A DNA stretch of 64,000 nt from Collybia mongolica (taxonomy: Eukaryota; Basidiomycota; Agaricomycetes; Agaricales; Clitocybaceae): contig JAAXNY010000012.1 in the NCBI GenBank assembly GCA_013420905.1, positions 434,001 to 498,000 on the forward strand, read 5' to 3'. This document shows, one piece after another, positions 5,085 to 45,566 of the stretch. The translations under genes were made by a program, and so were the position numbers. The notes under the pieces were generated by a model, which saw only the letters and a list, made by a program, of their open reading frames with translations, ran no database searches and had not been told where the DNA came from. The stretch's first letter is position 1. Each line of letters starts with the position of its first letter.

Positions 5085-6302
5085 TGAAAGGGGGCTCCTG
5101 GGCTATAAGTGCGCTGATGCTATGTAATGTAGTCCTTCACACACACACACACCAAACCTAACAATCAACACACGAACAGTAGGAATCGCCTGTTTTGAGT
5201 TCGGGTTCAAGTGCTTAGAAGCACTAAGCTTTGAATAGTACTAGCCAAAGCCCTTTCCAATGATCTCTCAACGGGTTCGATTTAGACAAAAGCTTCAACA
5301 CAGGTTCAAAAACCTGCTAGGTATATTTATAATATCTCTCGATCCAATAGACTGAGTACCAAGTGTACGTTCAATTATTAGTGATCCCAAGCGGATCTAT
5401 AAGTCCAAGCGACTTATCAAACAATACAGTGCCAAGTGCACTAAGGCCAAGTGCCTAGTAATTCCAACGGACAATACGGTACTAAGTTCCAAGTGAACTA
5501 AGTTTCTTTAATTCTGTGGTTCTCCAATCAATTCCAATCAAGACACGTTGAAGCAATCCGATCCTTAATTCGGGCACGCAATAGTGTTTTAACAAATGTG
5601 ATTTGTATACTCTATAGTCGCGCGAAGTGGGGGCAAGATTCCTTACCTTGGCGCTACTCATCTACAGTCTATTTATAATGTACAAACTAAATATCATACG
5701 GAATTGTAAATTTTACACAGAACCGCGCTCCCACGCGCCAAGGATCTGTATTCAATACCGACGCGTCTACTACAGCTTGGCGCGCGCGCCACGCGTGCCA
5801 ATTATGTCGTTTACTGGTTACTTATCAAATATTGAAAGAGCGGGCTAAACTCTTATCAAGTCCCGACCGCGCGCTTTGTTATTTAAAACAGCGCGGCACT
5901 GTCGTTTACTCCCCCTGATTGTCCCGGTTGTTATTCACGGTGTCCCGTCGCTTCCGGTAGTTAACACCAAGTACCCCTGACTAGGATCGGGTTGTGCAAG
6001 TCCCGAATTTACAATTACTTCTCCTATTAATGATGATCCCCGGACTAATGATATCATACTACAACGGTTACTTATGAACTAAGACACCGAGGTTGTAACT
6101 GGGCATGGTGAATAGGACTAATAATAGACCGTACTCATAGTCCTCTGTACTGATAGTGTATTATCCATTAGACTAGTTCACTCTGATTAGCCGTCTTGGA
6201 GCTCGACTCTAATCCTTTATTACCACTTACTTGGTTATTAGAAATGACACTAATAGCCTTACTTGTCGACTTTATAAGTGCAAACAATTTCGGGCCCTAT
6301 CA
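5085..6302 (-). repeat. Element A 3' LTR (left copy)
   Basis: 1218 bp, starting TGAAAGGGGGCTCC and ending CGGGCCCTATCA. It is the 3' LTR because the polypurine tract lies directly inside it. It holds a cluster of CCAAGTG/AAGTGC motifs at about 5208-5490, which in element orientation is towards the LTR end. Confidence 0.93.
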
Positions 6303-6754: not shown

Positions 6755-7307
6755 ATGTCTTCCACTTCCACTTCACCTGCGGCGACATTGAGTGCTCCTT
6801 CAACAGTTGGGGTAAACCGTGCATTGAATACGCTACTGCCAAGAAGGGGAAGTGCAGCTTCAGTCTCACTCCCCAGAAGCGCGCTAGGCTCCGGGAGGAT
6901 CTGGGGCCTATGCTTGGTGTGGGCATTTCCAGTAAGCCATTTTCTTTCTGTCTTTTTGTTTACTAATGATTTTACATATTCTACTAGCGGTTGCTGAAGC
7001 CTATGCTCAGCTAGGCGACGCGGACTCTCTTGCCGCGGAGGTCATTCAGGCCGCTAACCGCGCGCTTGAAATGCGCAACTCCTTGTTGGCGCGCATAGTT
7101 GGCACCATCGGTAAGTTGTACGAGGAGGAAGGCCTGGAGGGCCTTCAAAACCTCTTGCTGACTACGCCAGCCACGGAGAGCGCTCTCCTCTTCTACGCGG
7201 ATTTCCAGAACCTCCCTTGGCCGCCCTTGGAGGAAGAAGCAGAGGTTGATGACGGTTCTTCGTCGTCAAGTTCCTCTTCGTCCGTGCCTGACAGCGAGGA
7301 GGAGTAG
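6755..7307 (+). pseudogene. Accessory gene 1 remnant in Element A
   Basis: The start MSSTSTS (ATG at 6755) is followed after seven codons by sequence that in Element B lies 1.4 kb further on, in exon 7. About 1.4 kb holding exons 2-6 and parts of exons 1 and 7 has been lost, and the joint puts the Cys-motif region out of frame. The last intron (GTAAGC...CTACTAG) and the last exon (VAEAYAQLGDADSLAAEV..., acidic serine-rich tail, stop at 7305-7307) are intact. The copy in Element B (37174-39130) shows the full structure. Confidence 0.85.
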
Positions 7308-8014: not shown

Positions 8015-9397
8015 ATGACTAGCCTCCCCAACTATCAAGACATCGAGAACTTCAAGATGGTCCAAGCTCTGTGGAACACCTTTCAAGCTCGTTTATCGAT
8101 GGACACCCTTGTTGAACAAAGGGTCAGCGTCCGGAAGTTAGGTGAAACCGCGGTACACTTTTTACCAATTTAACTTTTATACGCCGTTATCGTAACCAAC
8201 TTTTACAATTTACAGCTACTCCTGACTGAGTCCAAAATGGTTTTGACGGAGCGGTCCTGGCAGAATGTTATCTTTGGCGTCCGTAAAGCATTCCAGGGAC
8301 TACAACATGTATACCCCGAGTTACTTCAAGAGCCCGTCTACTGCAACATTGTGACTCTTACTGCCGCTATTCACCGTCACTGTGAAAAGCTCCGCACTGA
8401 GCACCTGTCTCAAACCGCGGTGCGTGCTTTTTACCTCATCTTGTACTGTACTGTTCTTTTTAAACCATGGTTTTCTGGTACTAGGTCCCTGCTACTGGTG
8501 GTGAAGCGGATGGTACCACTATTCCAGGCGAGGTCATTGCTGGCGGTGAATATGACGGTGACATTGAAATGTCTGGTACTGACTTGGTATGTTTCTTTTT
8601 AGCTACCGCGCTGTCAGTGCGCGACATACTCAATGGCGTCTCTTCTTTACTCAAGAATATGGTCATTGATTCCGGCGCTACGGCTAGTGCTGCTGTCTCT
8701 GGATCAGTGACTAGTCGTCTCCTTAGTGAAGGACCAATCACCCGTAGCCGCAAGGAGAAGGAGAACATTAAGGTTCCCCGTGTCAAAAGGACTAAGGCTG
8801 AAAAGGCTGCCATCAAGGTACCCATTCTTGTTTTTGCTCTGTCTATTACTTTGTTTCTTATTCCTACAGGACGGTAAGCGTTCCGAGCTCAATCGCGGCA
8901 GCACTCTTCGTCCCAAAAAGTGTACGAGGCAGGACACCCCGGATGAAGATCCAAAGGCATCTGCTGAGGGTACGTTTTCTAATAATAGATGGTTCTAAAT
9001 TTATACCAACTGTGCATCAGATACTCGTGTCTTTATTGACTTCCGTCCCTCCAAGGAGCACAATGTAGTCTTAGCGCGGGCGCGCTTGATTGCAGACGCG
9101 GGCGATCCCATGTCGCACACCAAGCAAGCCCTCGGTAGGATGCTCTTAAACTACCGCGCTGAGTTGGAGGAGATCAGTCATACAGTGTCCTTCTTATTGA
9201 AGCGTCGTGATGCCACTATGGACGAGGTTACTCGCCTCAACGGTCTAATGAACGAGGCCGCTCTGGAGGGGGGCTCTGACGAGGCTGCCACTGCGAGCAC
9301 TACGGAAGTCCATGACCAGGATGACAATGATAAGGAGGAGGTAGCTCCGGCTGACGTGCCCTTGCCCGAGGTTGAAGACGACTTCATATCTGCTTGA
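8015..9397 (+). CDS. Accessory gene 2 of Element A, antisense to pol, spliced
   Basis: Five exons (8015-8152, 8216-8419, 8485-8817, 8870-8969, 9021-9397) join with consistent phases across four GT-AG introns of 51-65 nt, giving 383 aa without internal stops. The N-terminus is MTSLPNYQDIENFKMVQALW. A lysine/arginine-rich segment (RSRKEKENIKVP then VKRTKAEKAAIK) at about residues 190-225 could be a nuclear localisation or DNA-binding region. The C-terminus is strongly acidic (DDNDKEEVAPADVPLPEVEDDFISA region). I recognise no known domain. The gene is convergent with pol, whose stop lies 147 bp away, and has its own TATA box. Element B carries the same exon structure but with an early stop. Function is unknown; an anti-silencing or transcription role is only a hypothesis. 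Confidence 0.85.
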
Positions 9398-9543: not shown

Positions 9544-12500
9544 TCACCTATGCAACTTCCGGTGTGACATAGTAGTTTGTGGTAGCGCCGGCGCTATCCC
9601 CTCCTCAGTGTTCTCACTAGAGCTTGACTCTGAATCGGACTGATCCAATTGGACTCTGTCAAAAGTATAGTCACGCTCCTTGTAAACTTGCCTATTAGCG
9701 GGATCTTTCGATTCCACTAAAGCATTTAGTGTTTCGCTAGAGATGTCTATTAGATCTTGCAGATTATCCGGCAGTTCAATTGTACTCCTAGCAAAATAGG
9801 GAATAACCCTAAACGCCCCCACTTTATGTTGCCACACCGATCCATCCATTTCGCAAACAATATAGGCTCCCCCGCGGTTTCGTCTCAGGACTATCATTGG
9901 TCCCAGGTACCGTGGCTTCAGCTTTTTATCGAGCGAACTTTCGACCTCGGTATTTCTAACTAGTACTAAACTTCCTGGTTTGAAATCATAGTCTCTGATG
10001 GTCGCGCTGTGATCCTTCTCATACTGTAATAGTCTCCTTCGTTTTTCTATATTGATACGTTTCCTCATATCGGCCACATGCTGGACGTGCTTAGCTAGAG
10101 CCTGCGCTCTAAACCCAATGAGTTCCTCTGTAGTCAATATTTTTCCTGGTAACTTTACTAACCAAGTGGCTTCAATAATATCTAACGGTAAGGTTGGGTG
10201 CGCGCCCGTAATCATAAAATAGGGGGAGCAACCCGTCCCTTTCCGTATAGTAATTCTGTCAGCCCACATTACATGGTGGAAGAAGTAGTACCACTTCTTT
10301 ACATCACCACCTGTAGCTTTGAAGACAGCTTGACGCACATCCCAATGTGCGCGCTCGGCGATCCCATTTCCTTTGGAATTGTATGGTGATATACTTATTC
10401 CTGTAATACCATACTTGGATTCCAGCCACGCTTTGGCTGCGACAAAGGCAGGACCATTATCCGTTACAATTTCCGTTAGGGAACCCCATCTACAAATTAC
10501 TTCTTTCGAACAGCCACCTTCCCAAGGTCTTGCCATCCTCAGATTTGAGGGGCGCGCCTTCCATCCACGAAGACAGCGCACATCTTCCTTGGACAATGTA
10601 TTTATAACCATTAGACGATGGGCTCATATACATGGTGTCCGCATGCAATACTTGGAATATAGACGGCGTGTGGGTTATGACAGGAGGGATTCTCAACAAA
10701 GTTAAGAGCCTTGTCTGACAGATGTGACATGACTTCACATACCATGATACATCACATTCCATTTCTGGCCACCAAAATCTTTTATCTATTAAGGATTTTG
10801 TTGCATAGAAACCCCTATGTCCAACAGAATCGTGAGACGCCTTCATCATATATGTTCGGTGATTTTTATCAACAACAAGCTGGTGCGCGCTATCGATACT
10901 TTTCCTATACATCCTGCCTTCTGGATCCAAAAAGAAATTAGACGCCTGCCTTGCAAACTTTAGGTAGGCGTGATCTGTCATTCCTTTTGGTCTCTTTTGT
11001 GGTCTTTTTAACCATTCTTTTATTAAAGGTAGGTTTTTATCCTGTTCCTGCGCCGTAGGTGTTCGTTTAGACTCGTCATATACTTCCCTTACATTAGGGT
11101 CATATTTAAACTTTTCATCAGGTATGACAGTAGTATTTACAAGTTGCTTTAGATAAGCTTCTCTTTGAATACCGAACCGTCCTAAACCTAAGTGCTGTTT
11201 TACTTCTCCAATAAATGCTGCTTCACCAGCCCAGGCATTGTTTACTTCAACTTCAAAATCAGAGATTTCCTTCGCAAGGTGGAATAAATATCCGCCGCGC
11301 GTGTCGATCTCCTCTTTAAAATCTGACAGCTCCAAAGGGTCATCTAACCCTTCCGTTGGGTTGATAAACTTTAAAGGACCTGAGGGTTCGTCGTAACCGT
11401 CGTCTGGGTCCGGGTAGACAGGATCCCCTAGCCGCGCGTCTCGTCTTGACAGACCATCTGGGCCAAAGCCTTTACCAGCTTTATGAACCAGAGTAAAGTG
11501 GAACATAAGTATCCTATCAATCCACCTATTTACCATTGCATTAGGTCCTAGACTTGGGTTTGATAACATCCCCTTAATGTACTTTGCATCCGTTTCCACT
11601 ACCAAATTTCGTACTCCAATAAACCAATAATAACATGCCATTAGAACTCTCATCAATCCGAATAGCTCTCGTTTGGGTTGTGAGAAGCGCGCTTCGCGCT
11701 CATTCAGAGTTATCGAGTCAAATCTAGCATAGTGCTTTCTTCCAGGTATATCAGGGTCTTCCTGATAGATATAGTAGCCTACGGCTTTCCATGACGTATC
11801 TACTGACAATACCACTGGCGTATTCCAGGTGTAATTAATTGGACGGAGCGCGGGGCTATTTTTAAGTGCGTCTAACAATAGCTGCTGCGCTTCTTCTTGC
11901 TCAGGCCCCCATATCCAAGGTTCGCTACTTCTAGTTAACTTTTGAATTGGTTGGCCTATACGGGCGAAGTCTTTAATGAAATTCCTGCATACACCAATAG
12001 TTCCCATGTAAGCGCGTACTTCACTGACATCTTTGCATGGTCCCCATCTTTCAACTACACCGATTCTATCTGTAGTAGGTTTTTGTCCTTCATAGGTACA
12101 TCTATGTCCTACCACTAGAATTTCACTTGCGCATAACATAGACTTATATCCTGAAAACGTTCCTCCAGAATACTTCATTCTCTGTACGACGCGATTTACA
12201 TTTTGCATATGTTCCCAGAAGAAGCGCCTAACACCTGGAGCACCAGGTAGCTCTTCTTCTGTTCCGTCCGGCACTTCGTAGCGCGTTGCTGGACCGCGCA
12301 CGGGTACATCATCAATGTAGGGTATTGTGACATGTGGTACCTCATCCTGTAGGATGTATGTGACATCATCATGAAATATTGGAACTGAATTCGTCCATCC
12401 CATAGGAAGTGTTACTAGTCTCAGCGCGCCAAACGGTGTTTGGAACGTGGTTAGATCGCGCGAGGTTTCTGCTAAAGGCCTCTCATCGTATCCTACATAT

Positions 12501-13558
12501 AGATCCATCATTCCGCCACAAGCGCGCCCTGCGAAGTGTTCTGCTAGTTCTTCGGTAGCGGGTGGTAAGCCCGAGTGCGCTATTGTGACTGCATTCAGCG
12601 GTTCTAGACTATGTACAATTCTAAGCTTCTTTCCTGGGCCTTTCTTTAATACGGTAAACCATCTAGACCTATATGATGAATTGGATCTCTCATAGACTCC
12701 TGCATCAATTTTAGTTTTGATGATTTTACAAACATCTTCATAGATCCCTGGTGGGATTCTAATGTTCCTTTCTGTCCACGGCGTATGTGGGACTACTGGT
12801 ATCTCGACAGGAGGAAAATATTCCTTCTTAAAGCTACCGCGCTCACTATCATTCCAGGCAAAACCATCATTATGTTTGCACATAAAGTCGTGGATTATAT
12901 CCATCTCTTTAGGTTTTAAGAGGCTCTCTTCTTCGTGTACCCTTTGGAATTCCGCGCGCCTTTCCTCAGTATACCTTCCAGTTGGTTTAAACGGAGGTGG
13001 GTTAGGCGTTAGAACGGGTAGGGCCGCTAAAGGGTCACCCTTTATATCTCTGATAATTCTAAATTTATCAGGCAGGTCCGCCAGTGTTGGTTTTGTTTTC
13101 AAATGTACTGGTTTATACTTCTTTCCTACTAGCTGATCCATGGGCTCAATATTACACTTTTCACTTGTTGCAGTTCCAAGACCGCGCTCGTTGGTGCCAA
13201 TTTGCCACTGCTTTAATTTACTTAAAGCTTTATCGGTCATGGGCTGTTTTTGAGCGTATGTCATAGGTCTAGTGGGTGTACTTGCTGGGTTGCTGCTGTT
13301 CTGCTCATAGTTTATCACTGGTCCATCGCGCTCATCTACGGAAGCCAAGTACATGGCTAGTAATTCGCGTTCAGGTACTGTACTATTCATGTTCACATCA
13401 CTTCTAGACAAAAAGACATCTCTAAGTTCTTTGTGACCAAAATTCCGTTTATCAGTAGGGTGTCTATAACCCGTTATAATAAAGTTTCCGTTCTCATCTT
13501 CAGCAATTTCTACGGCTAGCTCTCCTTGATCACTTTGGATTAATTCATTGAAGGCCAA
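9544..13558 (-). pseudogene. Element A pol: RT, RNase H, integrase (one frameshift)
   Basis: A large minus-strand frame from the ATG at 13558 runs through reverse transcriptase with an intact YIDD (12308-12319), RNase H (VLSVDTSW) and the integrase HHCC finger (SHDSVGHRGF...CHICQTR). It is then cut at about 10504 by one extra T. The remainder, in another frame to 9544, holds the second catalytic Asp (VTDNGPAF) and the Glu ([10 protein letters not shown]). Element B lacks the extra base and reads straight through (RWLFEEVICR), so the frameshift is specific to A. The frame overlaps the protease ORF by 19 nt, which implies frameshifting or reinitiation between the two. Confidence 0.9.
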
Positions 13559-14745
13559 AAATCCTGCTCCAGTTGTCTTTTCAACAGCTTAGGCGGTGAT
13601 CCCTTTGCATGGGTAGGGATAGTACACCTTCGTCCCGTGTTAGGGTCCGTGATAGTGACTACTTGTCCCCCGTCCCGAGCATTTTTGATCTGACTTTCCG
13701 TGAGTGTATCAAACGGTCTCCCGAGCAATACTTTGTATGCGGGTGAATTTATGATATGTACTTGGAGGTAGATGGCCATGTCATTAAACAAGAAAGGAAC
13801 ATTGCGCGCTAATCCCGCTGTTTTCTCAACTTGTTTATTAGCACTCTGCATGTGTATGACAACGTCCGGATCCCATGAAATATCTAAGTCTAAAGCCGTT
13901 TGTTTAGCCATTGATACTATTTGGGATCCCCCATCTAATAAAGATTCCTCCGTTCCTACCCCATTTATTACTGGATATACTGCGCGCAAAGAGGCCGATT
14001 CTTTTGCTACATACAACTGTTTGGGCTCTTCCCCAGCTGGTAAAGATTCTAAATACTGTAGGACTGGGTCTCCGCATATTATAGATCCCTTAGGTATTCC
14101 GCCGCAGTCATACTCCGAGATGAAGAAAGACTGGAATGGGATTGACTCTACTGGTAGCGCGTCATGCCGTAAGTAGTTATCATCAAGTTCCCAGTCCCCT
14201 CCAAAGGGTAAGACGTCTTCCTCATCTATTCCGTTTATTTGCAAGTTAGCGTCCCTTTGGGTGAGGGACTTACGTCTGGCAGTTACAATATTCTTTATCC
14301 CATCTCTAATGGTTTTTGACGAGCCCATTAACTCTCCTGTGGTCAATGTGATAGGGTTGTCTAACACTTTAGCAATTATATCGCCACCTTTTAATTTTAC
14401 TTCTATCGGGGACTTAGTTTCATAAGTCGGACCGCGCTTAGTGTTAAAATTAGGTAGCGGATCAACTGGTTCAGGGTTGCATTCCGTTCTCCGGGGTATG
14501 TAGGGTACCACGGGCACATCGATGTAGGGTAATTCTTTTCGTACTGGAGACTTTACTGATGGTTCAACAAATTTTACTTTCTTTTTCCTAGGAGACGGCG
14601 CTACCAACTCCTCCTCGCTACTATCCCGACTACTCTCCGAATCGTTACTTTCTTGACGACTATTTCTGTTTTTATTTCGGTCCTCTGGCTGTCTCTTGGA
14701 ACGCGACCTAGTCGTAGGTCTAGCGTGTTCCTTAGCCTCCTTCAT
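13540..14745 (-). CDS. Element A protease ORF
   Basis: 401 aa. The N-terminal third is basic and charged (ATTRSRSKRQPEDRNKN-like, then a Ser/Glu-rich stretch and RKKKVKF). The C-terminal half carries the retropepsin-like pattern LLDGGSQIVSM followed by LGRPFDTLTES, as in basidiomycete gypsy proteases, with D-G-G where D-S/T-G is usual. The ATG follows the stop of the gag zinc-knuckle ORF after only five bases (TAG GTCTG ATG), suggesting termination-reinitiation. It overlaps the RT frame by 19 nt. Confidence 0.8.
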   Translation of the reverse strand: MKEAKEHARPTTRSRSKRQPEDRNKNRNSRQESNDSESSRDSSEEELVAPSPRKKKVKFVEPSVKSPVRKELPYIDVPVVPYIPRRTECNPEPVDPLPNFNTKRGPTYETKSPIEVKLKGGDIIAKVLDNPITLTTGELMGSSKTIRDGIKNIVTARRKSLTQRDANLQINGIDEEDVLPFGGDWELDDNYLRHDALPVESIPFQSFFISEYDCGGIPKGSIICGDPVLQYLESLPAGEEPKQLYVAKESASLRAVYPVINGVGTEESLLDGGSQIVSMAKQTALDLDISWDPDVVIHMQSANKQVEKTAGLARNVPFLFNDMAIYLQVHIINSPAYKVLLGRPFDTLTESQIKNARDGGQVVTITDPNTGRRCTIPTHAKGSPPKLLKRQLEQDFWPSMN

Positions 14746-14750
14746 CAGAC

Positions 14751-15419
14751 CTAATTGAAACCCGACTCTTTAACCTTGTTTTGGTTATTGAGTTCTGCTA
14801 CCTGCCCTAATAAAGTACTCATTTGTGCTTGTAAGGCTGCTATGTCAGGATTCGGCGCGCTCTTTGCCGTAGGATTATAGTTATTATTTATATATTCCTG
14901 TTTCTGCATCTGAGGCGGTACTGGCAACGCAGTTTGCGCGCTCTGTTGTCCTAACATTTGTTGCGCTTGAAATTGTGCCATTTGTGCCATTATGGCTTTC
15001 AAGGTTCCAATGTCGTTACTATTGTCTACTGCATTATGTGACTGCATAACGGACAATACTCCTGGAGCGGGTCCTTCCGTGACATCTCCGTAATAAAGGG
15101 CCGCTACCTTCTTTGAATGGAAGTGTTCCACTTTATCTTTCAATGATACCGTTTCTGGTTCTCTTGGAATATATGATCCGTCTGGTAAGCATACTCCTCC
15201 ATTTGCGTTGGTTTTTATTTTCCCTTCCTCAAAATGTTTCTGTTTCTCGGGACAGGCCATTATGAAGTGTCCGGGTGTAAAACAGTAGTGACATTTATAC
15301 GCATTTGGTCTTTGCGGTTGTCCTTCTTTAGGCTTTCCGTACTGATTCTGATACTGATGCTGCTGGGGTGCGCTATTTGTGGCATGGTTCTGAACAGTTG
15401 CTTGTTGAAGCGCTTTCAT
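14751..15419 (-). CDS. Element A gag, C-terminal part with zinc knuckle
   Basis: 222 aa from the listed ATG, though the frame is open upstream to about 15480. A Gln/Asn-rich N-terminus is followed by the knuckle CHYCFTPGHFIMAC (C-x2-C-x4-H-x4-C) and a segment with GGVCLPDGSYIPREPE typical of agaricomycete gypsy gag proteins (DUF4100-like, from family knowledge). It is probably joined to the upstream gag frame by splicing across 15480-15920 or by another mechanism; the joint was not resolved. Confidence 0.75.
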   Translation of the reverse strand: MKALQQATVQNHATNSAPQQHQYQNQYGKPKEGQPQRPNAYKCHYCFTPGHFIMACPEKQKHFEEGKIKTNANGGVCLPDGSYIPREPETVSLKDKVEHFHSKKVAALYYGDVTEGPAPGVLSVMQSHNAVDNSNDIGTLKAIMAQMAQFQAQQMLGQQSAQTALPVPPQMQKQEYINNNYNPTAKSAPNPDIAALQAQMSTLLGQVAELNNQNKVKESGFN

Positions 15420-15479
15420 TACATCCTCGAATCCACTCCTCGTATTCTTCTCATTTACTTGGAGATTGTTACGGCTGTT

Positions 15480-15859
15480 TAGGCCTTATCCTCTAGATCA
15501 ATATGCTGAGTCGTTCGTTCGTTCTTAGACCGTTGACTTCTGTAAGTCTAACGTCTATTGACTCCCTCAATAGGGCTAAAGTCAAGTTATCGAGTTTATC
15601 TGATCAGAGATGCACTACCCCCTTCGTAAGGCGGATAGGATCGAGTTCGCGTCAAGAGAATAGATGAATAAGGTGAATTCAGCTAGGTCAAGCTAAAGAA
15701 CTAGCTAAGCTAAACTACCTGTATATATACGTAGTAATCCGATAAGCGTCGTTTACGCTATTCGTTATAGATAAGAGTTAGTAAGCTATCTAAGAGGATG
15801 AATAAGAAAGCTTAGTAACCATGAGAAAGAGAATGCATATATGGATGTCAAAGATAAGG
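15480..15859 (-). other. Stop-rich spacer inside Element A gag
   Basis: About 400 bp of AT-rich sequence with repeated AGCTAAG/CTAGCTAA words and stops in all minus frames separates the two gag frames. An intron is the simplest explanation, but I found no GT-AG pair with matching phase and good consensus. A small insertion is the alternative. Element B lacks this region, so no comparison is possible. Confidence 0.4.
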
Positions 15860-16732
15860 TCAAGTGAGCGTCTGATAGTAAAGAAGAGAGAAAAGAAATG
15901 ATGTGACGAAAGAATAGAGGAATTTGTAACAGAGATGGTCTAACAAATTAACTATTTGTTGTTTTATTTCATCCATCTCTACTTTGATTTTGGGCGCTGC
16001 TGTTGCTGTTACGGACGTTATAAACGATCTATTCGTGTCTGGAATATTCATGTTGGCTACACCTTCAGAAATGCTGATTGCAGTTGCTATAACTTCCTCC
16101 AGATCGTACTGATCCCCTTTTCGTCGCGCGAGCGCGGCGGCTTCGGCAATAGTATTAGGATCTGCTCGGTTGTTTGTAGCAACGGCTTGTCCTGCCTGTG
16201 TAGCATTAGACTGATTATTCCCTAGCAGGGTTAGCCTTCCTTGTACTTGGGATCTGAAGACTTCGTCTAGACATCCCAAGAACTTGGTAACTAATTCTCG
16301 GTTAGAGATAATAGGTGGCCTAACTCCCAAGAGTTTAATAGATTCTGCTTTGAATTCACGCTTCAGCTTTTTCAGCGCGGCCTCATCGGTTACTCCAATA
16401 CGTGGGTTGGCGCGACACACTGCTTCTAACTTGGCTACTGATCCTTCTACTTGATCGAGTGCTTCCGGATAACTAGAGATCAACTCTGTCTTGAAATCCG
16501 TCCAAGTGCCTGTCTTATAGTGGTCTAATGCCCTCCACTCATTCTCTGATTGTAGGTCTGCGTATTTTCCTAACATTAACTTCTTTTCTTCATCATTTGT
16601 AATGTTACACTCCTTCCATAGGACCTCCATTCGCTCCAGAAACCGGATTAAACCTGTGGGCTCTTTTCCTTTGAATACTGGTGCATCACGGACGCCTGGT
16701 TGGGGCATATATTTACGAGGGGGTTCAGTCAT
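15860..16732 (-). CDS. Element A gag, N-terminal part
   Basis: 290 aa from the first ATG, MTEPPRKYMPQPGVRDAP, with a capsid-like helical core (FLERMEVLWKECNITNDEEK, ALDHYKTGTWTDFKTEL) typical of basidiomycete gypsy gag. The frame stays open upstream of this ATG to about 17085 and encodes a plausible basic, Ser/Pro-rich stretch, so the natural start may be upstream or in a leader exon. The last ~25 residues before the stop look non-coding and may be intron read-through. Confidence 0.75.
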   Translation of the reverse strand: MTEPPRKYMPQPGVRDAPVFKGKEPTGLIRFLERMEVLWKECNITNDEEKKLMLGKYADLQSENEWRALDHYKTGTWTDFKTELISSYPEALDQVEGSVAKLEAVCRANPRIGVTDEAALKKLKREFKAESIKLLGVRPPIISNRELVTKFLGCLDEVFRSQVQGRLTLLGNNQSNATQAGQAVATNNRADPNTIAEAAALARRKGDQYDLEEVIATAISISEGVANMNIPDTNRSFITSVTATAAPKIKVEMDEIKQQIVNLLDHLCYKFLYSFVTSFLFSLLYYQTLT

Positions 16733-17168
16733 GATTACTGAATGGTTCTGAGTAGCTAACGAGTTCGGGTTTGCTACTGGGTTTACTATGGACGATCTTC
16801 CGCGCGCTACTGGTCTACTAGTAGTCGATATGTTTCCTAAGGGCTCTGGGGTTCTAAATACTTGCCTTGGTCCTGAAGATCCAAAGGCTGGTTGTGAAGA
16901 TCCTCGTGTGCGCGCTCGCCTAGGAGGTGGTAACGACTCTGTTACTCCAGCGTTTTGCGAATTTTTAGTCTGCCGCGTTTTTGTAGCTACTTGTCTTGCA
17001 AGTGGCTGATTAGTTAGTCTGTTTGACGAGCTGGCTTGTGGGCGTGGCTCTTGAGACAGATTGACTAAACTTTCTCCGCTCTACTTCAATTTGTAGACGA
17101 CGTTACTCGTCTTGGTATAATATTTTTCAAAGAAAGATGCTCTCTTTAGACTATTCAAAACTCTGAAC

Positions 17169-17185: not shown

Positions 17186-17187
17186 GA

Positions 17188-18405
17188 TGAAAGGGGGCTC
17201 CTGGGCTATAAGTGCGCTGATGCTATGTAATGTAGTCCTTCACACACACACACACCAAACCTAACAATCAACACACGAACAGTAGGAATCGCCTGTTTTG
17301 AGTTCGGGTTCAAGTGCTTAGAAGCACTAAGCTTTGAATAGTACTAGCCAAAGCCCTTTCCAATGATCTCTCAACGGGTTCGATTTAGACAAAAGCTTCA
17401 ACACAGGTTCAAAAACCTGCTAGGTATATTTATAATATCTCTCGATCCAATAGACTGAGTACCAAGTGTACGTTCAATTATTAGTGATCCCAAGCGGATC
17501 TATAAGTCCAAGCGACTTATCAAACAATACAGTGCCAAGTGCACTAAGGCCAAGTGCCTAGTAATTCCAACGGACAATACGGTACTAAGTTCCAAGTGAA
17601 CTAAGTTTCTTTAATTCTGTGGTTCTCCAATCAATTCCAATCAAGACACGTTGAAGCAATCCGATCCTTAATTCGGGCACGCAATAGTGTTTTAACAAAT
17701 GTGATTTGTATACTCTATAGTCGCGCGAAGTGGGGGCAAGATTCCTTACCTTGGCGCTACTCATCTACAGTCTATTTATAATGTACAAACTAAATATCAT
17801 ACGGAATTGTAAATTTTACACAGAACCGCGCTCCCACGCGCCAAGGATCTGTATTCAATACCGACGCGTCTACTACAGCTTGGCGCGCGCGCCACGCGTG
17901 CCAATTATGTCGTTTACTGGTTACTTATCAAATATTGAAAGAGCGGGCTAAACTCTTATCAAGTCCCGACCGCGCGCTTTGTTATTTAAAACAGCGCGGC
18001 ACTGTCGTTTACTCCCCCTGATTGTCCCGGTTGTTATTCACGGTGTCCCGTCGCTTCCGGTAGTTAACACCAAGTACCCCTGACTAGGATCGGGTTGTGC
18101 AAGTCCCGAATTTACAATTACTTCTCCTATTAATGATGATCCCCGGACTAATGATATCATACTACAACGGTTACTTATGAACTAAGACACCGAGGTTGTA
18201 ACTGGGCATGGTGAATAGGACTAATAATAGACCGTACTCATAGTCCTCTGTACTGATAGTGTATTATCCATTAGACTAGTTCACTCTGATTAGCCGTCTT
18301 GGAGCTCGACTCTAATCCTTTATTACCACTTACTTGGTTATTAGAAATGACACTAATAGCCTTACTTGTCAACTTTATAAGTGCAAACAATTTCGGGCCC
18401 TATCA
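17188..18405 (-). repeat. Element A 5' LTR (right copy)
   Basis: 1218 bp, the same length as the left LTR; one visible mismatch. It is followed by the duplicated CCGC and then by the resumed Gypsy1 gag. Confidence 0.93.
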
Positions 18406-35420: not shown

Positions 35421-35505
35421 GGTGGGTGTTGTTGATGTGGTTGAAGAGAACCAACGAAGGTGTGGCAATGGTAATGTGACTGTGGCATGTGCTTTGTAAT
35501 CACAT

Positions 35506-36720
35506 TGAAAGGGGGCTCCTGGGCTATAAGTGTGCTGATGCTATGAAATGTAATCTCTTACACACACACACCAAATCTAACAATCAACACACAAATGGTA
35601 GGAATCACCTGTTTTGAGTTCAGGTTCAAGTGCTTAGAAGCACTAAGCTTTGAATAGTACTAGTCAAGGCCCTTTCCAATGATCTCTCGATGGGTTTGAT
35701 TCGGACAAAGCTTTAACACAAGTTTAAAGCTTGCTAGGTATATTTATAATATCTGTCAATCCAATAGACTGAGTACCAAGTGTACGTTCAATTATTAATG
35801 ATCCCAAGGGGATCTATAAGTCCAAGTGACTTATTAAACAAACAGTGCCAAGTGCACTAAAGGCCAAGTGCCTTGTAATTCCAATGGACAATGCAGTACC
35901 AAGTTCCAAGTGAACTAAGACTCTTCAATTCTGTGATCTCTTCCAACAATTCCAATCAAGACAACTTTGAAGCAATCAGAGCCTTAATTCAGGCATGCAA
36001 TAGTGTTTTAACAAATGTGATTTGTATACTCTATAGTAGTGCGAAGTGGGGGCAAGATTCCTTGCCTTTGCGCTACTCATCTACAGTCTATTTATAGTGT
36101 ACAAACTAAATATCATATGGAATTGTAAATTTTATACAGAACCGCGCTCCCCCGCACCAAGGATCTGTATTTAATGCTGACTCATCCTCTATGACTTGGC
36201 GCGCATGCCATGCATGCCAATTATGTCGTTACTGGGTACTTATCAAATACTGAAAGAGCTGGCTAAACTCTTATCAAGTCCTGACTGCGCACTTTGTTAT
36301 TTAAAACAGCGTGGCACTGTCATTTACTTCTCCTGATTGTCCCAGTTGTTATTCATGGTGTCCCGTCTCTTCCGGTAGTTAACACCAAGTGCCCTTGACT
36401 AGGATCAGGTTGTGCAAGTCCCGAATTTACAATTACTTCTCCTATTAATGATGATCCCCGGACTAATGATATCATACTACAACGGTTACTTATGAATTAA
36501 GATACCAAGGTTGTAACTGGGCATGGTGAATAGGACTAATAATAGACCATACTCATAGTCCTCTGTACTGATAGTGTATTATCCATTAGACTAGTTCACT
36601 CTGATTAGCCATCTTGGAGCTTGACTCTAACCCTTTATTACTGTTTACTTGGTTATTAGAAATGATACTAATAGCCTTACTTGTTGACTTTATAAGTGCA
36701 AACAATTTTGGGCCCTATCA
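35506..36720 (-). repeat. Element B 3' LTR (left copy)
   Basis: 1215 bp, TGAAAGGG...GGGCCCTATCA, followed by the polypurine tract complement TCTCCCCCAC (36721-36730). Confidence 0.92.
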
Positions 36721-37173
36721 TCTCCCCCACACCACAAATGTAGACTGTCCTCAGTCTCTCTTTGCTGGCATGTTAGTCCAATACTTCAGGTCTGCACGCG
36801 TCTAATCATTCAGTACAAGGTCACAACGGTTCCCGCTTTTAGACAGGTAGGCATGCGATGTCAGGATCGAGCCCAGAGGTCTACTTTCCATCAGGATCAT
36901 GACAGTTATATACTTCTCCTGAGAGAGTACTTGATATTTGGACATTGCTCTACAGATATTTCAGTCATCTGAGCATTTCTCTCGTTATGTTTCTGACACT
37001 TCAGCAAGAGATCGGTGCTCCTGCTTGTCCTTTAGAGCTTTGGAATGCAGGGTTGTGCATTTTAAAAAGCTCTTGCTTTTGCTAGGTTTTAGACAATTTG
37101 GACTTTACAGCCCATTTCTAAATTTCTTTGCTATTCACATTGCTCAACCACTCCAACCCTTTCTTAAATAAAT

Positions 37174-39130
37174 ATGTCTTCCACTTCCACTTCTGCCATG
37201 GCTCATGCTCTGCGCTCACCTTCTGCGCTGTCCCTTTCGCTCTCCAATGCGATTTTACCAACTGAGGGCCATTCCCCTGCTATGGTCTACGTGGACCAGC
37301 CCATCCTTTCATTCTCTGATCTCCTTGAAGATGCCAAGGGTGACGTCTTTGTTGCCATGGAGCAAGGGTGGATCATTATGGCCAAGGAGCTCGTGCCCCA
37401 TATGGACCATCAGGGGCCCCTTGACCTTGACAATTTAATTGACTTCATCGATCATTGCTCCTTGCTGATTGTATGCCCATCTTTTACTTGTTAAAACCTT
37501 TTACTAAATCACATATTTACCAGTCTCAGGATGCAATCACTGGCGTGGTTCGTGGCACATGCTTTTTGTTGCCATACCTGGCCATTCTCCTCCTGCGTGC
37601 GCTTCTCCTCCAGGTGATGCGCCTCCCGGTTGAAGCCTGCAAAGCCTTGTGGTCTTCCTGGCATACAGTCATATCGGCTGACCTAGGAAACAATTCCATT
37701 CTTCTGGTAAATGGCTTGTTTACTTCTTTACTCTGTCCTGGTCATACTGATTACTTTTTACTTTAGGGTCAGGCTCCCACTGTGGAGCAAGTTCTGGACC
37801 AGGTGGGGTTGCGCTACAAGCGCAACAACGGTGACAGTATCTTCCAGGATACTTTCCTCATCCCCCCTCGCATGGTTGGAGCGCTGCGCCGTTACCATCA
37901 GTACCGGGACAGCTGGTCCGTTGTGCCCTTGCCTGCGCGCTCCCCGGTTTTGGTACCCACAGTTTGTCAATCTCATCTTTTATTACTTTTCTTCTGTTGT
38001 TGACTTATTTCAATAGCCCCTTAAGAGGAAGCGCAATGCTGGGCCCAAGGGCAAAGGCTGCGCGGTTCCCCAGGTATACAATCCTTTACTACAAGAGCTT
38101 TACATTATTCCTGACTTGATTTCAAAATTCTAGTCTGACATGTCACGTGCCCAAGGGGCTGGCAGTGATTCCATGCTGTGTCCCATGGAGGCAGGTCCTG
38201 TATGTCTCCTTTCTATTTTAAAACCCATTTATCTTTACTTATTTTTATTTTTTTAGTCCTCCGGGCAGCCACCGGTTAAGGTTGAGGTCCCTGAGCTTCG
38301 GCTCTTTGATCAAGAGATTGCATGCCAGCTGGCTCAAGAGGGATTCATGGAGTTGTTGCCTCCCGCGGCCCTTTCTCCTCGTCAGTTGCATAAGACCACT
38401 CATTCTAGGGATGGGGTTCAGGCGTCATGCCATAAGCATGCACTAGTCCCCAACTGGGAGCCTATGCCACTATGGTCTCCTATTACATCCCTGCTGGCTG
38501 ACCTTGTGCCTTGGCACTCTACCGTATGTTTATTACTACTTTATTTCTTGTTACTGATCATTCTTACTAGGTTGGCTATCCTTGCACAATGTGCGCCACC
38601 TGCGGCGACATTGAATGCTCCTTCAACAGTTGGGGTAAACCGTGCATTGAATACGCTACTGCCAAGAAGGGGAAGTGCAGCTTCAGTCTCACTCCCCAGA
38701 AGCGCGCTAGGCTCCGGGAGGATCTGGGGCCTATGCTTGGTGTGGGCATTTCCAGTAAGCCATTTTCTTTCTGTCTTTTTGTTTACTAATGATTTTACAT
38801 ATTCTACTAGTGGTTGCTGAAGTGTATGCTCAGCTGGACAACACGGACACTCTTGCCACAGAGGTTATTCAGGCCGCTAACCATGCGCTTGAAATGTGCA
38901 ACTCCTTGTTGGCATGCATAGTCAGCACCATTGGTAGGTTATACGAGGAGGAAGGCCTGGAGGGCCTTCAAAACCTCTTGCTGACTATGCCAGCCACAGA
39001 GAGCGCTCTCCTCTTCTATGCGGAGTTTCAGAACCTCCCTTGGCCACCCTTGGAGGATGAATCAGAGGTTGATGACAGTTCTTCGTCATCAGCCTCCTCT
39101 TCGTCTGCACCTGATAGCGAGGAGGAGTAG
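37174..39130 (+). CDS. Accessory gene 1 of Element B, antisense to pol, 8 exons
   Basis: Exons 37174-37470, 37524-37706, 37767-37952, 38017-38073, 38134-38199, 38257-38523, 38571-38754 and 38811-39130 join through seven GT-AG introns of 47-64 nt with consistent phases, giving 519 aa without a stop. Features: a hydrophobic helix (residues about 115-130, LAILLLRALLL), a basic NLS-like PLKRKRNAGPKGKG (223-236), and a cysteine motif at 357-388, CTMC-x7-C-x8-CIEY-x7-C, which resembles Zn2Cys6 with Tyr at the fifth position and one additional Cys. The C-terminus is acidic and serine-rich (DDSSSSSASSSSAPDSEEE). I infer a nuclear, possibly DNA-binding protein. It lies between the end of pol and the polypurine tract, in opposite orientation. 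In Element A the same gene is deleted down to its ends. Confidence 0.88.
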
Positions 39131-39816
39131 CCATGCCATGCCCCCCATCTATTTTTTTATCTACTTGTGTTTTCCCGGGCCCCTGTGCCCTTACATATTA
39201 CTTATTCCCCCGTCTTTTGTTGGGCTTCAATTTTATTAATTGAAGTCTAACACTCATTTCTGTACAGTCCCTTGGACTATAAACAATACAATTGGTTTTA
39301 CCATTGTTCTATTGTTTTCATAAGAAAGCTTCCGCCCTTGCACCGGCTACTTAAGTTATAAATAGTACAGTTAAATTCTGGTGCAATTCTCTTGATCATT
39401 AAGACCGTGGCGCAATCACTGACTTTTTATAGACAATCTATTTCAATCCTTGTAACCTTGGTAGGTTTTTCCAAATCAATTTTGCTTATACCCATCTCCC
39501 CCTCAACACTGAATACAACTGTCCCAGTTGTCATGTGGACACTGCTGCACTTGACATGAATTTTTACAGAGCTTTTTTTTTAATTGGGCTCAGCATTTCA
39601 ATTAGGCACGCGTCTCAGACATGTTCAATTGAAATGTGCAAATTTTTCTGGGGTAGAATGTGCGCGACAAATGAGAGGCTGGGTAGCACTTTCCTAGTTG
39701 TAGAGGTATAAAAAGGGCATTGGCTGTGCTATTTTTCAAAAGACATCGCCAGACTCTATTATACTCTCTTTACAATGTTCTGTTTCGAAAGAAAAACCAA
39801 TTTCCTCTGCATTATT
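39131..39816. other. Spacer between accessory genes in Element B
   Basis: Non-coding; contains the conserved TATAAAAA box of gene 2 at 39707-39714. Confidence 0.5.
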
Positions 39817-41149
39817 ATGACTAGCCTCCCCAACTATCAAGACATCGAGAACTTCAAGATGGTCCAAGCTCAGTAGAACACCTTTCAAGCTCGTTTATCA
39901 ATGGTCAGTGTCCAGAAGTTAGGCGAAACCACGGTACACTTTTTACCAATTAAACCTATAACGCCGTTATCATAACCAACTTTTACAATTTACAGTTACT
40001 CCTGACTGAATCCAAAATGGTTTTGACAGAGCAGTCCTGGCAGAATGTTATCTTTGGCATCCATAAGGCATTCCAGGGACTACAACACATATACCCCAAG
40101 TTACTTCAAGAGCCTGTCTACCATAACATTGTAACTCTTACTGCTGCTATTCACCGTCACCGTGAAAAGGTCCGCACTGAGCACCTCTCTCAAACCACGG
40201 TGCATGCTTTTTTTACCTTATCTTGTACTTTACTGTCCTTAAACTATGGTATCCTGGTACTAGGTCCCTGCCACTGGTGGCAACACGGATGGTACCACTA
40301 TTCCAGGCAAGGTTATTGCTGGTGGTGAATATGATGGTGACATTGAAATGTCTGGTACTGACTTGGTATGTTTCTTTTTAGCTACCGTGCTGTCAGTGCA
40401 CGACATACTCAATGGTGTCTCTTCTTTACTCAAGAATATGGTCATTGATTCCAGCACTACGGCCAGCACTGCTGTCTCTGGACCAGCGACTAGTCGTCTC
40501 CTCAGTGAAGGACCAATCACCCGTAGTCGAAAAGAGAAGGAGAACATTAAGGTTCCCTGCATCAAAAGGACTAAGGCTGAAAAGGCTGCCATCAAGGTAC
40601 CTGTTCTTGTTTTTACTCTGTCTATTACTTCGTTTCTTATTCTTACAGGATGGTAAACACTCTGAGCTCAACCACAGCAGCACTCTTTGTCCCAAAAAGT
40701 GTACAAGGCAGGACACCCCAGATGAAGATCCAAAGGCATCTGCTGAGGGTACATTTTCTAATAATAGCTGATTCCAAATTTATACCAACTGTGTACAAGA
40801 TACTCGTATCTTTATTGACTTCCGTCCCTCCAAGGAGCACAATGTAGTCTTAGCGTGGGCGCGCTTGATTGCTGACACAGGCAATCCCATGTCACACACC
40901 AAGCAAGCCCTCAGTAGGATGCTTTTAAACTACTGCACTGAGTTGGAGGAGATCAGTCATACAGTGTCCTTCTTATTGAAGCGTCGTGACACCACTATGG
41001 ATGAAGTCACCCGCCTTAATGGTCTAATGAACAAGGCTGCCACTGCGAGCGCTACTAGAGTCCATGACCAGGATGACAATGACAAAGAGGAAGTAGCTCC
41101 GGCTGACGTGCCCTTGCCTGAGGTTGAAGACGACTTCATATCTGCTTGA
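39817..41149 (+). pseudogene. Accessory gene 2 in Element B, early stop
   Basis: The same five-exon structure as in Element A. Codon 20 is TAG at 39874-39876 where A has TGG (Trp). A 21 bp in-frame deletion removes DTLVEQR-equivalent codons after LSM. Intron splice sites are still recognisable, and the downstream exons keep their frames (for example KNMVIDSSTTASTAVSG and the end DVPLPEVEDDFISA), so decay is recent or exon-level constraint lasted until late. Confidence 0.85.
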
Positions 41150-41295
41150 GGGCAGTCCAATTAACTTCCTCCTTAGTTATGGTGTCCCTCTCCACGCTCC
41201 TTTGTATTACTGTCTTTACTTGGCTTAACACTGTCCTTACTGCTTAGCTTCGTTGCTTATACTGTCTTTACTGCTTTTGTATCCACTCTGATTTA

Positions 41296-44200
41296 TCACC
41301 TATGCAACTTCCGGTGTGACTTAGTAGTTTGTGGTAGCACTGGAGCTATCCCTTCCTCGGTCTCCTCACTAGAACTTGACTCTGAATTGGACTGATCTAA
41401 TTGGACTCTATCAAAAGTATAGTCATGCTCCTTGTAAACTTGTCTATTAGAGGGATCTTTTGATTCCACTAAAGCATTTAATGTTTCACTAGAGATGTCT
41501 ATTAGATCTTGCAGATTGTCTGGCAGTTCAATTGCACTCCTAGCAAAATAAGGAATAACCCTAAATGCCCCCACTTTATGTTGCCACACTGATCCATCCA
41601 TTTCACAAACAATATAGGCTCCCCCACGGTTTCGTCTCAGGACTATCATTGGTCCAAGGTACTGTGGTTTCAGCTTTTTATCGAGCAAACTTTCAACCTC
41701 AGTATTTCTAACTAGTACTAAACTTCCTGGTTTGAAATCATAGTCTCTGATGGTTGCATGGTGATCCTTCTCATACTGTAATAGTCTCCTTCATTTTTCT
41801 ATATTGATATGTTTCCTCATATTGGCCACATGCTGGACGTGCTTAGCTAGAGCCTGCACTCTAAACCCAATGAGTTCCTCTGTAGTCAATATTTTCACTG
41901 GTAACTTTACTAACCAAGTGGCTTCAATGATATCTAACGGTAAGGTTGGATGCGCACCTGTAATCATAAAATAAGGGGAGCAACTTGTCCCTTTCTGTAT
42001 AGTAATCCTGTCAGCTGACATTACATGGTGAAAGAAGTAGTACCACTTCTTTACATCACCACCTGTAGCCTTGAAGACAGCTTGACACACATCCCAATGT
42101 GCACACTCGGCAATCCCATTTCCTTTGGAATTATATGGTGATATACTTATTCCTGTAATACCGTACTTGGATTCCAGCCACGCTTTGGCTGCAACAAAGG
42201 CAGGACCATTATCCATTACAATTTCCGTTAGGGAACCCAATCTACAGATTACTTCTTCAAACAGCCACCTTCCCAAGGTCTTGCCATCCTCAGATTTGAT
42301 GGGCATGCCTTCCATCCATGAGGACAGTGCGCACCTTCCTTGGACAATATATTTATAACCGTTAGATGGTGGGCTCATATGCATGGTGTCTGCATGTAAT
42401 ACTTGGAATATAGACGGCGTGTGGGTTATGACAGGAGGGATTCTCAACAAAGTTAAGAGCCTTGTCTGACAGATGTGACACAACTTCACATACCATGATA
42501 CATCACATTCCATTTCTGGCCACCAAAATCTTTTATCTATTAAGGATTTTGTTGCATAGAAACCCCTATGTCTGACAGAGTCATGAGACGCCCTCATCAT
42601 ATATGTATGGTGGTTTTTATCAACAACAAGCTGGTGTACACTATCGATATTTTTCCTATACATCTGGCCCTCTGGATCCAAAAAGAAATTAGAGGCCTGC
42701 CTTGCAAATTTTATGTAGGCGCGGTCTGTCATTCCTTTTGGTTTCTTTTGTGGTCTTTTTAACCATTCCTTTATTAAAGGTAGGTTTTTATCCTGTTCTT
42801 GCGCCGTAGGTGTCCGTTTAGACTCATTGTATACTTCCCTCACATTAGGGTCATATTTAAACTTTTCATCAGGTATGACAGTAGTATTTACAAGTTGCTT
42901 TAGATAAGCTTCTCTTTGAATACCGAACCGTCCTAAACCTAAGTGCTGCTTTATTTCCCCAATAAATGCTGCTTCACCAGCCCAAGCATTGTTTACTTCA
43001 ACTTCAAAATCAGAGATTTCCTTGGTGAGTTGAAATAAATATCCGCCATGTGTGTCACTCTCTTCCTTAAAGTCTGACAATTCAAAAGGGTCATCCAATC
43101 CCTTGGTTGGGTTGATAAACCTTAAAGGACCTGAGGGTTCATCGTAATCATTGTCTGGGTCCGGGTAGACAGGATCCCCTAGCTGCGCATCTCATCTTGA
43201 CAGACCGTCTGGGCCAAAGCCTTTACCAGCTTTATGAACCAAAGTAAAGTGGAACATAAGTATCCTATCAATCCACCTATTTACTGTTGCATTAGGTCCT
43301 AGACTTGGGTTTGATAATATCCCCTTAATGTACTTCGCATCTGTTTCTACTACCAAATTCTGTACTCCAATAAACCAATAATAACATGCCATTAGAACTG
43401 TCATTAATCTGAATAGCTCTTGTTTGGGTTGTGAGAAGCGCGCTTCATGCTCATTCAGGGTTATTGAGTCAAATCTAGCATAGTGCTTTCTCCCAGGTAT
43501 ATCAGGGTCTTCCTGATAGATATAGTAGCCTACGGCTTTCCATGTCATATCTACTGACAATACCACTGGCATATTCCAGGTGTAATTAATTGGACGGAGC
43601 ACAGGGCTATTTTTAAGTGCGTCTAATAATAGCTGTTGCACTTCTTCTTGCTCAGGCCCCCATATCCAAGGTTCACTACTTCTAGTTAACTTTTGAATCG
43701 GTTGGCCTATACAGGCAAAATCTTTAATGAAATTCCTGCATACACCAATAGTTCCCATGTAAGCGCATACTTCACTGACATCTTTGCATGGTCCCCATCT
43801 TTCAACTACACCAATCCTATCAGTAGTAGGTTTTCGTCCTTCATGGGTACATCTATGTCCTACTACTAGAATTTCACTTGCACATAACATAGACTTATAT
43901 CCTGAAAAGGTCCCTCCAGAATACTTCATTCTCTGTATGACACAATTTACATTTTGCATATGTTCCCAGAAGAAGTGTCTAACACCTGGAGCACCAGGTA
44001 GCTCTTCTTCTGTTCCATCTGGTAGTTCATAGCGCGTTGCTGGACCGCGCACAGGTATGTCATCAATGTAGGGTATTGTGACATGTGGTACCTCATCTTG
44101 TAGAATGTATGTAACATCATCATGAAATATTGGAACAGAATTCATCCATCCCATAGGGAGTGTTACTAGTCTCAGCACACCAAATGGTGTTTGGAACATC

Positions 44201-44352
44201 GTTAGATTGCATGAGGTTTCTGCTAAAGGCCTCTCATCATATCCTACATACAGATCCATCATTCCACCACAAGCGTGCCCTGCAAAGTGCTCTGCTAGTT
44301 CTTTGGTAGCAGGTGGTAAACCTGAGTGTGCTATTGTAACTGCATTTAGTGG
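41296..44352 (-). pseudogene. Element B pol remnant (RT C-terminal part, RNase H, integrase)
   Basis: One frame from 44352 to 41296 with two stops, TGA at 43192-43194 and TGA at 41791-41793. At both positions Element A has CGA, so these are C-to-T changes at CpG. YIDD of RT is present (PHVTIPYIDDIPV). The integrase is not frameshifted at the place where A is. The RT N-terminus is absent; homology stops at the joint with the LTR. Confidence 0.9.
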
Positions 44353-45566
44353 TGAAAGGGGGCTCCTGGGCTATAAGTGTGCTGATGCTATGAAATGTAA
44401 TCTCTTACACACACACACCAAACCTAACAATCAACACACAAACAGTAGGAATCGCCTGTTTTGAGTTTGGGTTCAAGTGCTTAGAAGCACTAAGCTTTGA
44501 ATAGTACTAGCCAAAGCTCTTTCCAATGATCTCTCAATGGGTTTGATTCAGACAAAGCCTCAACACAAGTTTAAAACTTGCTAGGTATATTTGTAATATC
44601 TCTCAATCTGATAGACAGAGTACCAAGTGTATGTTCAATTATTAATGATCCCAAGCAGATCTATAAGTCCAAGCAACTTATTAAACAAACAGTGCCAAGT
44701 GCACTAAGGCCAAGCGCCTAGTAATTCCAACGGACAATGCGGTACCAAGTTCCAAGTGAACTAAGACTCTTCAATTCTGTGATCTCCAAACAATTCCAAT
44801 CAAGACAACTTTGAAGCAATCTGAGCCTTAATTTGGGCACACAATAGTGTTTTAACAAATGTGATTTGTATACTCTATAGTAGTGCAAAGTGGGGGCAAG
44901 ATTCCTTGCCTTTGCGCTACTCATCTACAGTCTATTTATAGTGTACAAACTAAATATCATACGGAATTGTAAATTTTATATGGAACTGCACTCCCCCACA
45001 CCAAGGATCTGTATTTAATGCTGATGTGTCCTCTTTGACTTGGCGCGCATGCCATACATGCCAATTATGCCGTTTACTGGTTACTTATCAAATATTGAAA
45101 GAGCTGGCTAAACTCTTATCAAGTCCCAACTGTGTGCTTTGTTATTTAAAACAGCATGGCACTATCATTTACTTCTCCTGATTGTCCCGGTCGTTATTCA
45201 CAGTGTCCCGTCTCTTCCAGTAGTTAACACCAAGTGCCCTTGACTAGGATTGGGTTGTGCAAGTCCCGAATTTACAATTACTTCTCCTATTAATGATGAT
45301 CCCCAGACTAATGATATCATACTACAACGGTTACTTATGAATTAAGATACCAAGGTTGTAATCCAGGCATGGTGAATAGGACTAATAATAGGCCGTACTC
45401 ATAGTCCTCTGTACTGATAGTGTATTATCCATTAGCCTAGTTCACTCTGATTAGCCATCTCGGAGCTTGACTCTAATCCTTTATTACTGTTTACTTGGTT
45501 ATTAGAAATGATACTAATAGCCTTACTTGTTGACTTTATAAGTGCAAACAATTTTGGGTCCTATCA
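44353..45566 (-). repeat. Element B 5' LTR (right copy)
   Basis: 1214 bp, TGAAAGGG...GGGTCCTATCA. It follows RT sequence directly; no PBS or leader remains. Confidence 0.92.

Follow-up and report, generated by a model that had tools for sequence, protein, structure and literature searches.

Two intron-rich antisense genes in a Ty3/Gypsy-type retrotransposon of Collybia mongolica as candidate regulators of the element

We analyzed a 64,000-nucleotide stretch of the Collybia mongolica genome (the window, C12:434001-498000; bare coordinates below are positions within it) and found two copies of one Ty3/Gypsy-type long terminal repeat (LTR) retrotransposon, A (5085-18405) and B (35506-45566), both with gag-pol on the minus strand. 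Copy B, a deletion derivative, holds the spliced gene that had been predicted from the sequence at 37174-39130 on the plus strand (gene 1), antisense to pol. Between gene 1 and the integrase we identified a second antisense spliced gene (gene 2), which had escaped the original prediction. The element is a large (~14.2 kb), recently multiplied retrotransposon with a two-gene accessory block. We read this block as a spliced antisense pair whose introns are kept by their orientation and whose products would act in the nucleus and regulate the element in trans, and we put the probability of this reading at roughly 60%.

Gene structure and linkage to the element

Gene 1 starts with an ATG at 37174, stops at 39128-39130 and consists of eight exons that join across seven GT-AG introns into a frame without a stop. 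Exon 1 (37174..37470, 297 nt) is followed by exon 2 (37530..37706, 177 nt), exon 3 (37767..37961, 195 nt), exon 4 (38017..38073, 57 nt), which encodes a basic PLKRKR stretch, exon 5 (38134..38199, 66 nt), exon 6 (38257..38523, 267 nt), exon 7 (38571..38754, 184 nt), which carries a cysteine motif, and exon 8 (38811..39130, 320 nt), which encodes an acidic serine tail. The introns measure 47-60 nt in copy B; six are in phase 0 and the last one in phase 1. This architecture was assessed on 19 aligned copies, namely B and 18 of 20 further copies fetched from the genome, leaving out L019 (interrupted) and L027 (truncated). The eight exons and seven introns first proposed were retained, but the proposed length of 519 codons and the start of exon 2 at 37524 were not: intron 1 ends in a CAG at 37529 in all 19 copies, and an AG at 37523 exists in just two of them (B and L009). 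The joint is therefore 37470/37530 and the product has 520 residues. An automatic frame search initially favored a six-intron path with a different 3' part, but the other copies bear out the model with seven introns. Across both genes, a CTRAY branch-like site occurs in 5 of 11 introns, against 1.6 in shuffled sequence (p 0.012).

Gene 2 has five exons, four introns and 383 codons. Its frame is open in copy A (8015..9397, plus strand; introns 8153-8215, 8420-8484, 8818-8869 and 8970-9020) and damaged in copy B (39817..41149, plus strand) by a stop at codon 20 and two in-frame deletions. Among 15 copies (A, B, 12 of the 20 fetched copies and L038) the frame is open in 11, and exon lengths are fixed save for short deletions in B, L018, L023 and L026 and a 7-bp insertion in L011, while introns 1 and 2 vary in length. 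Introns of both genes span 47-67 nt across the aligned copies. A TATA-like box lies ~105-110 bp before the gene 2 ATG in copies A and B and was present in the seven copies displayed. All of the best 40 scored genome matches to gene 2 are full length. The two genes show no recognizable relation, and a common origin is unsupported. The third exon of gene 2 contains, at 8587-8660, a perfect donor (GTATGT) with TTTTTAG within 16 nt, a possible extra intron; it is too short for a normal one, and the frame is open if it is read through.

Both genes travel with the element. In the 46 Mb genome (26 contigs), a DNA search with gene 1 returned 42 matches, and of the 40 best candidates that were scored 33 are nearly full length, 32 of them, besides the window copy, at 85-90% identity. 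Rows pooled over several searches and merged within 3.5 kb give at least 101 gene 1 places. Seen from the other side, 32 of 36 scored pol copies have one of the listed gene 1 matches downstream of them and on the other strand, 28 of these 32 at a distance of 3,777-3,804 bp. Judged by their coordinates, three of the four remaining pol copies (C12:859189, C15:4129 and C18:2034) meet a contig end where the gene would begin; the fourth, on C23, has no such explanation. Of the 20 fetched copies, 18 have an LTR edge ~450 bp ahead of gene 1 and 12 have a full-length gene 2 after it; the integrase, whole or in part, follows the genes in copies that retain it. The predicted position of gene 1, between integrase and polypurine tract and pointing against gag-pol, thus holds, and so does the view that the gene is borne by the element. 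No clear host-locus copy appeared among those read.

Selection, intron survival and proposed role

Twelve of the 19 aligned copies keep the 520-codon frame of gene 1 with no change in exon length, and seven (B, L012, L017, L022, L023, L026 and L028) keep both the frame and every GT-AG. To these we added five young copies, a complete one on contig C5 and four sisters (the sisters over gene 1 only), all of which keep the 520-codon frame and the seven GT-AG introns. In the resulting 24-copy set, frame and splice sites are all intact in 12 copies, and exon length is unchanged in 18 and changed in 6. Intron length, by comparison, varies among the 19 copies for five of the seven introns. The donors of introns 5 and 6 are lost (ATATGT) in 6 of the 19 copies each, at C|G joints, and these losses look like CpG decay.

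Pairwise ratios of nonsynonymous to synonymous divergence (dN/dS), which had been suggested as a check on the gene, ranged from 0.17 to 0.48 over all pairs and from 0.17 to 0.33 between the young clade and four older intact copies, pointing to purifying selection. Intron divergence was well below dS, and at or above dN in most between-clade pairs; we therefore repeated the test without CpG-prone columns. Between B and L022, changes then fell on 16/399, 10/415 and 59/378 sites at codon positions 1, 2 and 3 and on 30/253 intron sites. The codon positions differ strongly (p = 6e-14), position 3 is indistinguishable from introns (p 0.20), and positions 1 and 2 together lie far below introns (p 8e-7). 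On columns not CpG-prone in the 24-copy set, variants common to at least three copies occupy 25/396 (6%), 17/411 (4%) and 84/373 (22%) sites at positions 1, 2 and 3 and 48/256 (19%) in introns. Single-copy variants, which are mostly changes after insertion, number 34, 20 and 39 at the three positions and 31 in introns over the same columns, and their position bias is much weaker (p 0.012, against 2e-18 for common variants). Strong bias in common variants and weak bias in single-copy ones therefore indicate selection on the spliced protein while lineages multiplied, fading after insertion. A pol piece containing the integrase gave 13/421, 10/426 and 38/408 between B and L038. Judged by these codon patterns, the spliced product of gene 1 is under purifying selection comparable to that on the integrase. 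Gene 2 is under a similar constraint, with 4/299, 3/323 and 25/308 changes at positions 1, 2 and 3 between A and B and 15/142 in introns.

Such results leave little room for three other accounts. Fungal splice signals are short, one joint had been misplaced and the automatic search first chose a different path, so a chance open frame or misread introns had to be considered; with exon lengths kept, intron lengths variable and a codon-position p of 6e-14, this account is refuted, and the original view that the gene exceeds chance is borne out. A second account holds that the antisense transcript itself is functional, through double-stranded RNA or occlusion of sense transcription, and that the frames are incidental. 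Antisense RNA has been proposed as a regulator in plant elements (PMC7264820, in part), and Hbz RNA also acts as RNA (excerpts of PMC10186651). In each of our two genes, however, codon positions 1 and 2 are shielded from change, unlike position 3 and the introns; this pattern speaks for selection on protein, so the functional-RNA account is largely refuted and very improbable. Thirdly, gene 1 could be a transduced host gene that rides along without use to the element, as its multi-intron structure, which resembles that of a host gene, and its lack of a known retroelement domain might suggest. Its place beside 32 of the 36 scored pol copies, its open frame in five of five young copies and the action of selection between element lineages make this highly unlikely. 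The same holds for its surroundings: no clear host-locus copy was seen, an LTR adjoins the gene in 18 of 20 fetched copies, and L012, one of the other two, has element sequence before the gene. Only the best-scoring candidates were compared in the question of a host parent, so a diverged one could escape.

Loss of introns is the expected fate of any sequence that replicates via RNA. Genes 1 and 2 would be read as host-type spliced messenger RNAs from the 3' LTR side, while the genomic RNA would carry their introns as the reverse complement, unspliced; the introns would then pass through reverse transcription and survive retrotransposition because there is nothing to splice. The data fit this explanation, already offered in the original prediction, although the reason itself is an inference: in a search with the joined coding sequence of gene 1, no intron-less copy occurred among the matches listed, and the sequence matched exon by exon or through introns. 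Two odd matches proved to be small deletions, of 24 bp in exon 1 (L029, with introns 1 to 3 kept in part of the alignment) and of 35 bp in exon 6 (C21:166966, with intron 6 intact).

The product of gene 1 has basic stretches (PLKRKR) and an acidic serine tail, as described at the outset under the heading of a nuclear-localization-like stretch, and that of gene 2 has the basic stretches KRTKAEKAAIKDGKR and RPKKRTRQ and an acidic tail. These features make a nuclear location of both products likely. A Zn2Cys6-like motif had also been proposed for gene 1. The Zn2Cys6 (Gal4-type) pattern is C-x2-C-x6-C-x5-12-C-x2-C-x6-8-C; exon 7 reads C-x2-C-x7-C-x8-C-x2-C-x7-C, with a first loop of 7 rather than 6 and no Pfam match, and we rejected membership of the class. 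In copy B the fifth cysteine is replaced by Tyr. By analogy with the antisense proteins of human T-cell leukemia viruses (HTLV) and with the plant elements Grande and Retand, both products might influence, in trans, the transcription or the chromatin of the element itself. CpG decay is strong in the copies, where most CpG-prone columns vary; host methylation is therefore likely, and an anti-silencing role is possible.

Several observations weigh against this regulatory reading. Pfam, searched with both genes of young copies, returned no match at E values up to 10, no significant relative of gene 1 was found in the PDB, and paired CGG/CCG sites are unenriched in the LTR and the 5' regions of both genes. 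Single-protein and alignment searches found no relatives of gene 1 outside the genome in a database that returned 1541 relatives of pol; this null is weak because the database consists mostly of environmental contigs, where gene calling probably fragments intron-containing genes. No relatives were found in viral contigs or plasmids either. Seven of the 19 first-set copies carry stops or frameshifts in gene 1 and five further ones have lost a splice site, and introns 6 and 7 of gene 1 (among the 19 copies) and introns 3 and 4 of gene 2 are constant in length. In two of the 20 fetched copies, L012 and the truncated L027, gene 1 has no neighboring LTR. Copy A, whose LTRs are 99.76% alike, is without most of gene 1, having lost ~1.4 kb of it, which implies either that the product is supplied in trans or that the loss followed insertion. 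Finally, the p values above are generous, since related copies from one genome were counted as independent.

The main rival is that the two genes encode accessory proteins that assist at a later stage (nuclear import of complementary DNA, target choice by the integrase or RNA export, for example) rather than regulators of transcription. Selection comparable to that on the integrase, the lack of a recognized DNA-binding domain and the unenriched CGG/CCG pairs all suit such helpers. So does the pattern of insertion: CCGC target duplications flank three of the four insertions read at both ends (copy A, the C5 copy and the solo LTR L010 1043-2267). Together with GC-rich outer flanks elsewhere (GCGG, GCGC), these duplications hint at preferred targets, but the fourth insertion, copy B, lacks a direct duplication and does not fit. 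No domain for a later step was recognized either, and antisense placement would make expression independent of gag-pol, which would better suit a regulator. We consider this alternative unlikely; a regulator of the element's transcription or chromatin is our best guess, ahead of proteins that assist import, integration or the export of RNA.

Copies of the element and their surroundings

A young complete copy occupies C5:3779735-3793963. Its LTRs of 1217 bp differ at 2 sites, CCGC flanks it on both sides, and it has open frames for gag (619 residues), a protease-like part (409 residues) and pol (at least 1308 residues), with genes 1 and 2 both open on the opposite strand. Paired TG...CA LTRs and a target duplication, as in Ty3/Gypsy elements, are present in this copy and in copy A, and both carry a putative primer-binding site, TGGAGCCCAC(C/T)GCGAGGGTTC, two bases from the 5' LTR. 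A purine run that adjoins the 3' LTR represents the polypurine tract. In copy A, the Pfam matches above the cut-off were zf-CCHC_2, RT_RNaseH and Integrase_H2C2, which give a gag zinc knuckle and the expected order of pol; matches to RVT_1 and to a protease fell below it. Pol is free of stops in 34 of the 36 scored copies. One of the 1541 pol relatives in the protein search is named as Armillaria (Armillaria ostoyae), and scans of viral contigs and genome contigs with pol found no relatives. Just past the C5 copy lies a transposase-like frame, by eye of Tc1/mariner type (L039 4464-5453).

Copy B begins with the LTR that adjoins gene 1, the 3' LTR in the sense of gag-pol (35506..36720, minus strand), whose edge is 454 bp from the gene 1 start. 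Its pol remnant (41296..44352, minus strand) comprises the later part of reverse transcriptase, RNase H and integrase. The far LTR (44353..45566, minus strand) is fused directly to pol at 44352, so the copy is without a primer-binding site, gag and the first part of pol. The two LTRs are 93.6% identical. Outside them stand ACAT and ATGT, with no direct target duplication; the outer flanks 35498-35505 and 45567-45574 are reverse complements of one another (AATCACAT / ATGTGATT), which might reflect an old recombination or a palindromic target.

Copy A carries the LTR adjoining gene 1 at 5085..6302 (minus strand; target duplication CCGC at 5081-5084), a gene 1 remnant at 6755..7307 (plus strand) with the internal deletion, interrupted frames for gag, a protease-like part and pol at 9544..17080 (minus strand) and the far LTR, 5' in the sense of gag-pol, at 17188..18405 (minus strand), with CCGC at 18406-18409 and the primer-binding-like site adjoining. 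The deletion occurs in one of the 40 scored gene 1 matches, copy A alone, and we rejected the idea that it marks a subfamily. Copy A itself sits inside a second Gypsy-type element, whose terminal repeats lie at 3437-3884 and 22887-23334 (98.0% alike) and which has a GGTAT target duplication, a gag interrupted by copy A and a pol that by eye ends in a chromodomain-like stretch. Minus-strand frames that flank the nest, 2664-3473 and 23149-24696, look by eye like two parts of a single large transposase-type gene that the insertion has separated.

Elsewhere, 266 bp of the element's 5' region precede gene 1 in L012, which is then cut by other repeats. Gene 1 is open there with all splice sites intact (L012 2235-5048, reverse complement), in an element remnant that other repeats cut on both sides, where stretches of 135 bp and 84 bp match the C5 copy's flank. 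Diverged direct repeats in the window at 28389-29448, 50258-52298 and 53887-55970, 74-79% alike, resemble P450 genes by eye.

Comparison with known systems

Plants provide established cases of antisense reading frames between pol and the 3' LTR, in Grande (gene23), RIRE2, Retand and PvRetro13; the Grande product is nuclear, and the TRP28 domain of Retand is predicted to bind DNA (PMC7264820 and PMC11963269, in the parts available). These plant frames, termed aORF-3R, share with our element an antisense frame in a long region between pol and the 3' LTR, and gene 1 has the position that defines the class in 32 of 36 scored pol copies. In contrast, our genes have seven and four introns, and the main texts of PMC7264820 and PMC11963269 mention none. 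Unlike Retand, neither gene 1 nor gene 2 has a TRP28 domain (PF04195) in Pfam searches up to E 10. Among fungi, the Gypsy element Boty (BcGypsy1) of Botrytis also has an extra antisense gene in this place, brtn (mentioned in PMC7264820 and PMC8365987).

A further parallel comes from retroviruses. The antisense genes of HTLV are spliced and have their promoter in the 3' LTR, HBZ and APH-2 are nuclear, and HBZ lowers expression of the provirus (excerpts of PMC10186651). Our genes would share with HBZ and with APH-2 to -4 of HTLV-1 to -4 the antisense strand and splicing (same source for the viruses), and by its exon structure and codon selection gene 1 would be a spliced antisense gene downstream of pol in the manner of HBZ. 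HBZ differs in having a bZIP domain, which Pfam did not find here, where no Pfam domain was recognized, and our genes have far more introns. We hold it about an even chance that this is a complex LTR retrotransposon in the HTLV sense, one dependent on a regulatory pair of antisense genes that have eleven spliceosomal introns between them, are expressed apart from gag-pol and keep these introns through reverse transcription only by virtue of their orientation. Introns in the sense direction occur in Ogre elements, which have one between gag-prot and reverse transcriptase, with some transcripts spliced and others not (PMC6317226, in excerpt), whereas all eleven introns here are antisense. LTR elements of bdelloid rotifers express extra reading frames from spliced messages (PMC5408684, in excerpt).

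For annotation, these genes carry a warning: gene calls without introns miss them, and intron-aware calls may list them as host genes. With many near-identical copies, a clear gene model and defined splice junctions, the function of an antisense LTR-element gene becomes testable. In our searches of the open-licence literature we saw no intron-rich antisense gene of an LTR element, and what appears new, as far as we have seen, is the number of antisense introns, the pairing of two genes and the contrast between selected exons and drifting introns. An antisense gene in this place is already known, and the present element is an unusually intron-rich case, in which eleven introns persist while the element multiplies, the exons staying under protein-level selection and the introns drifting.
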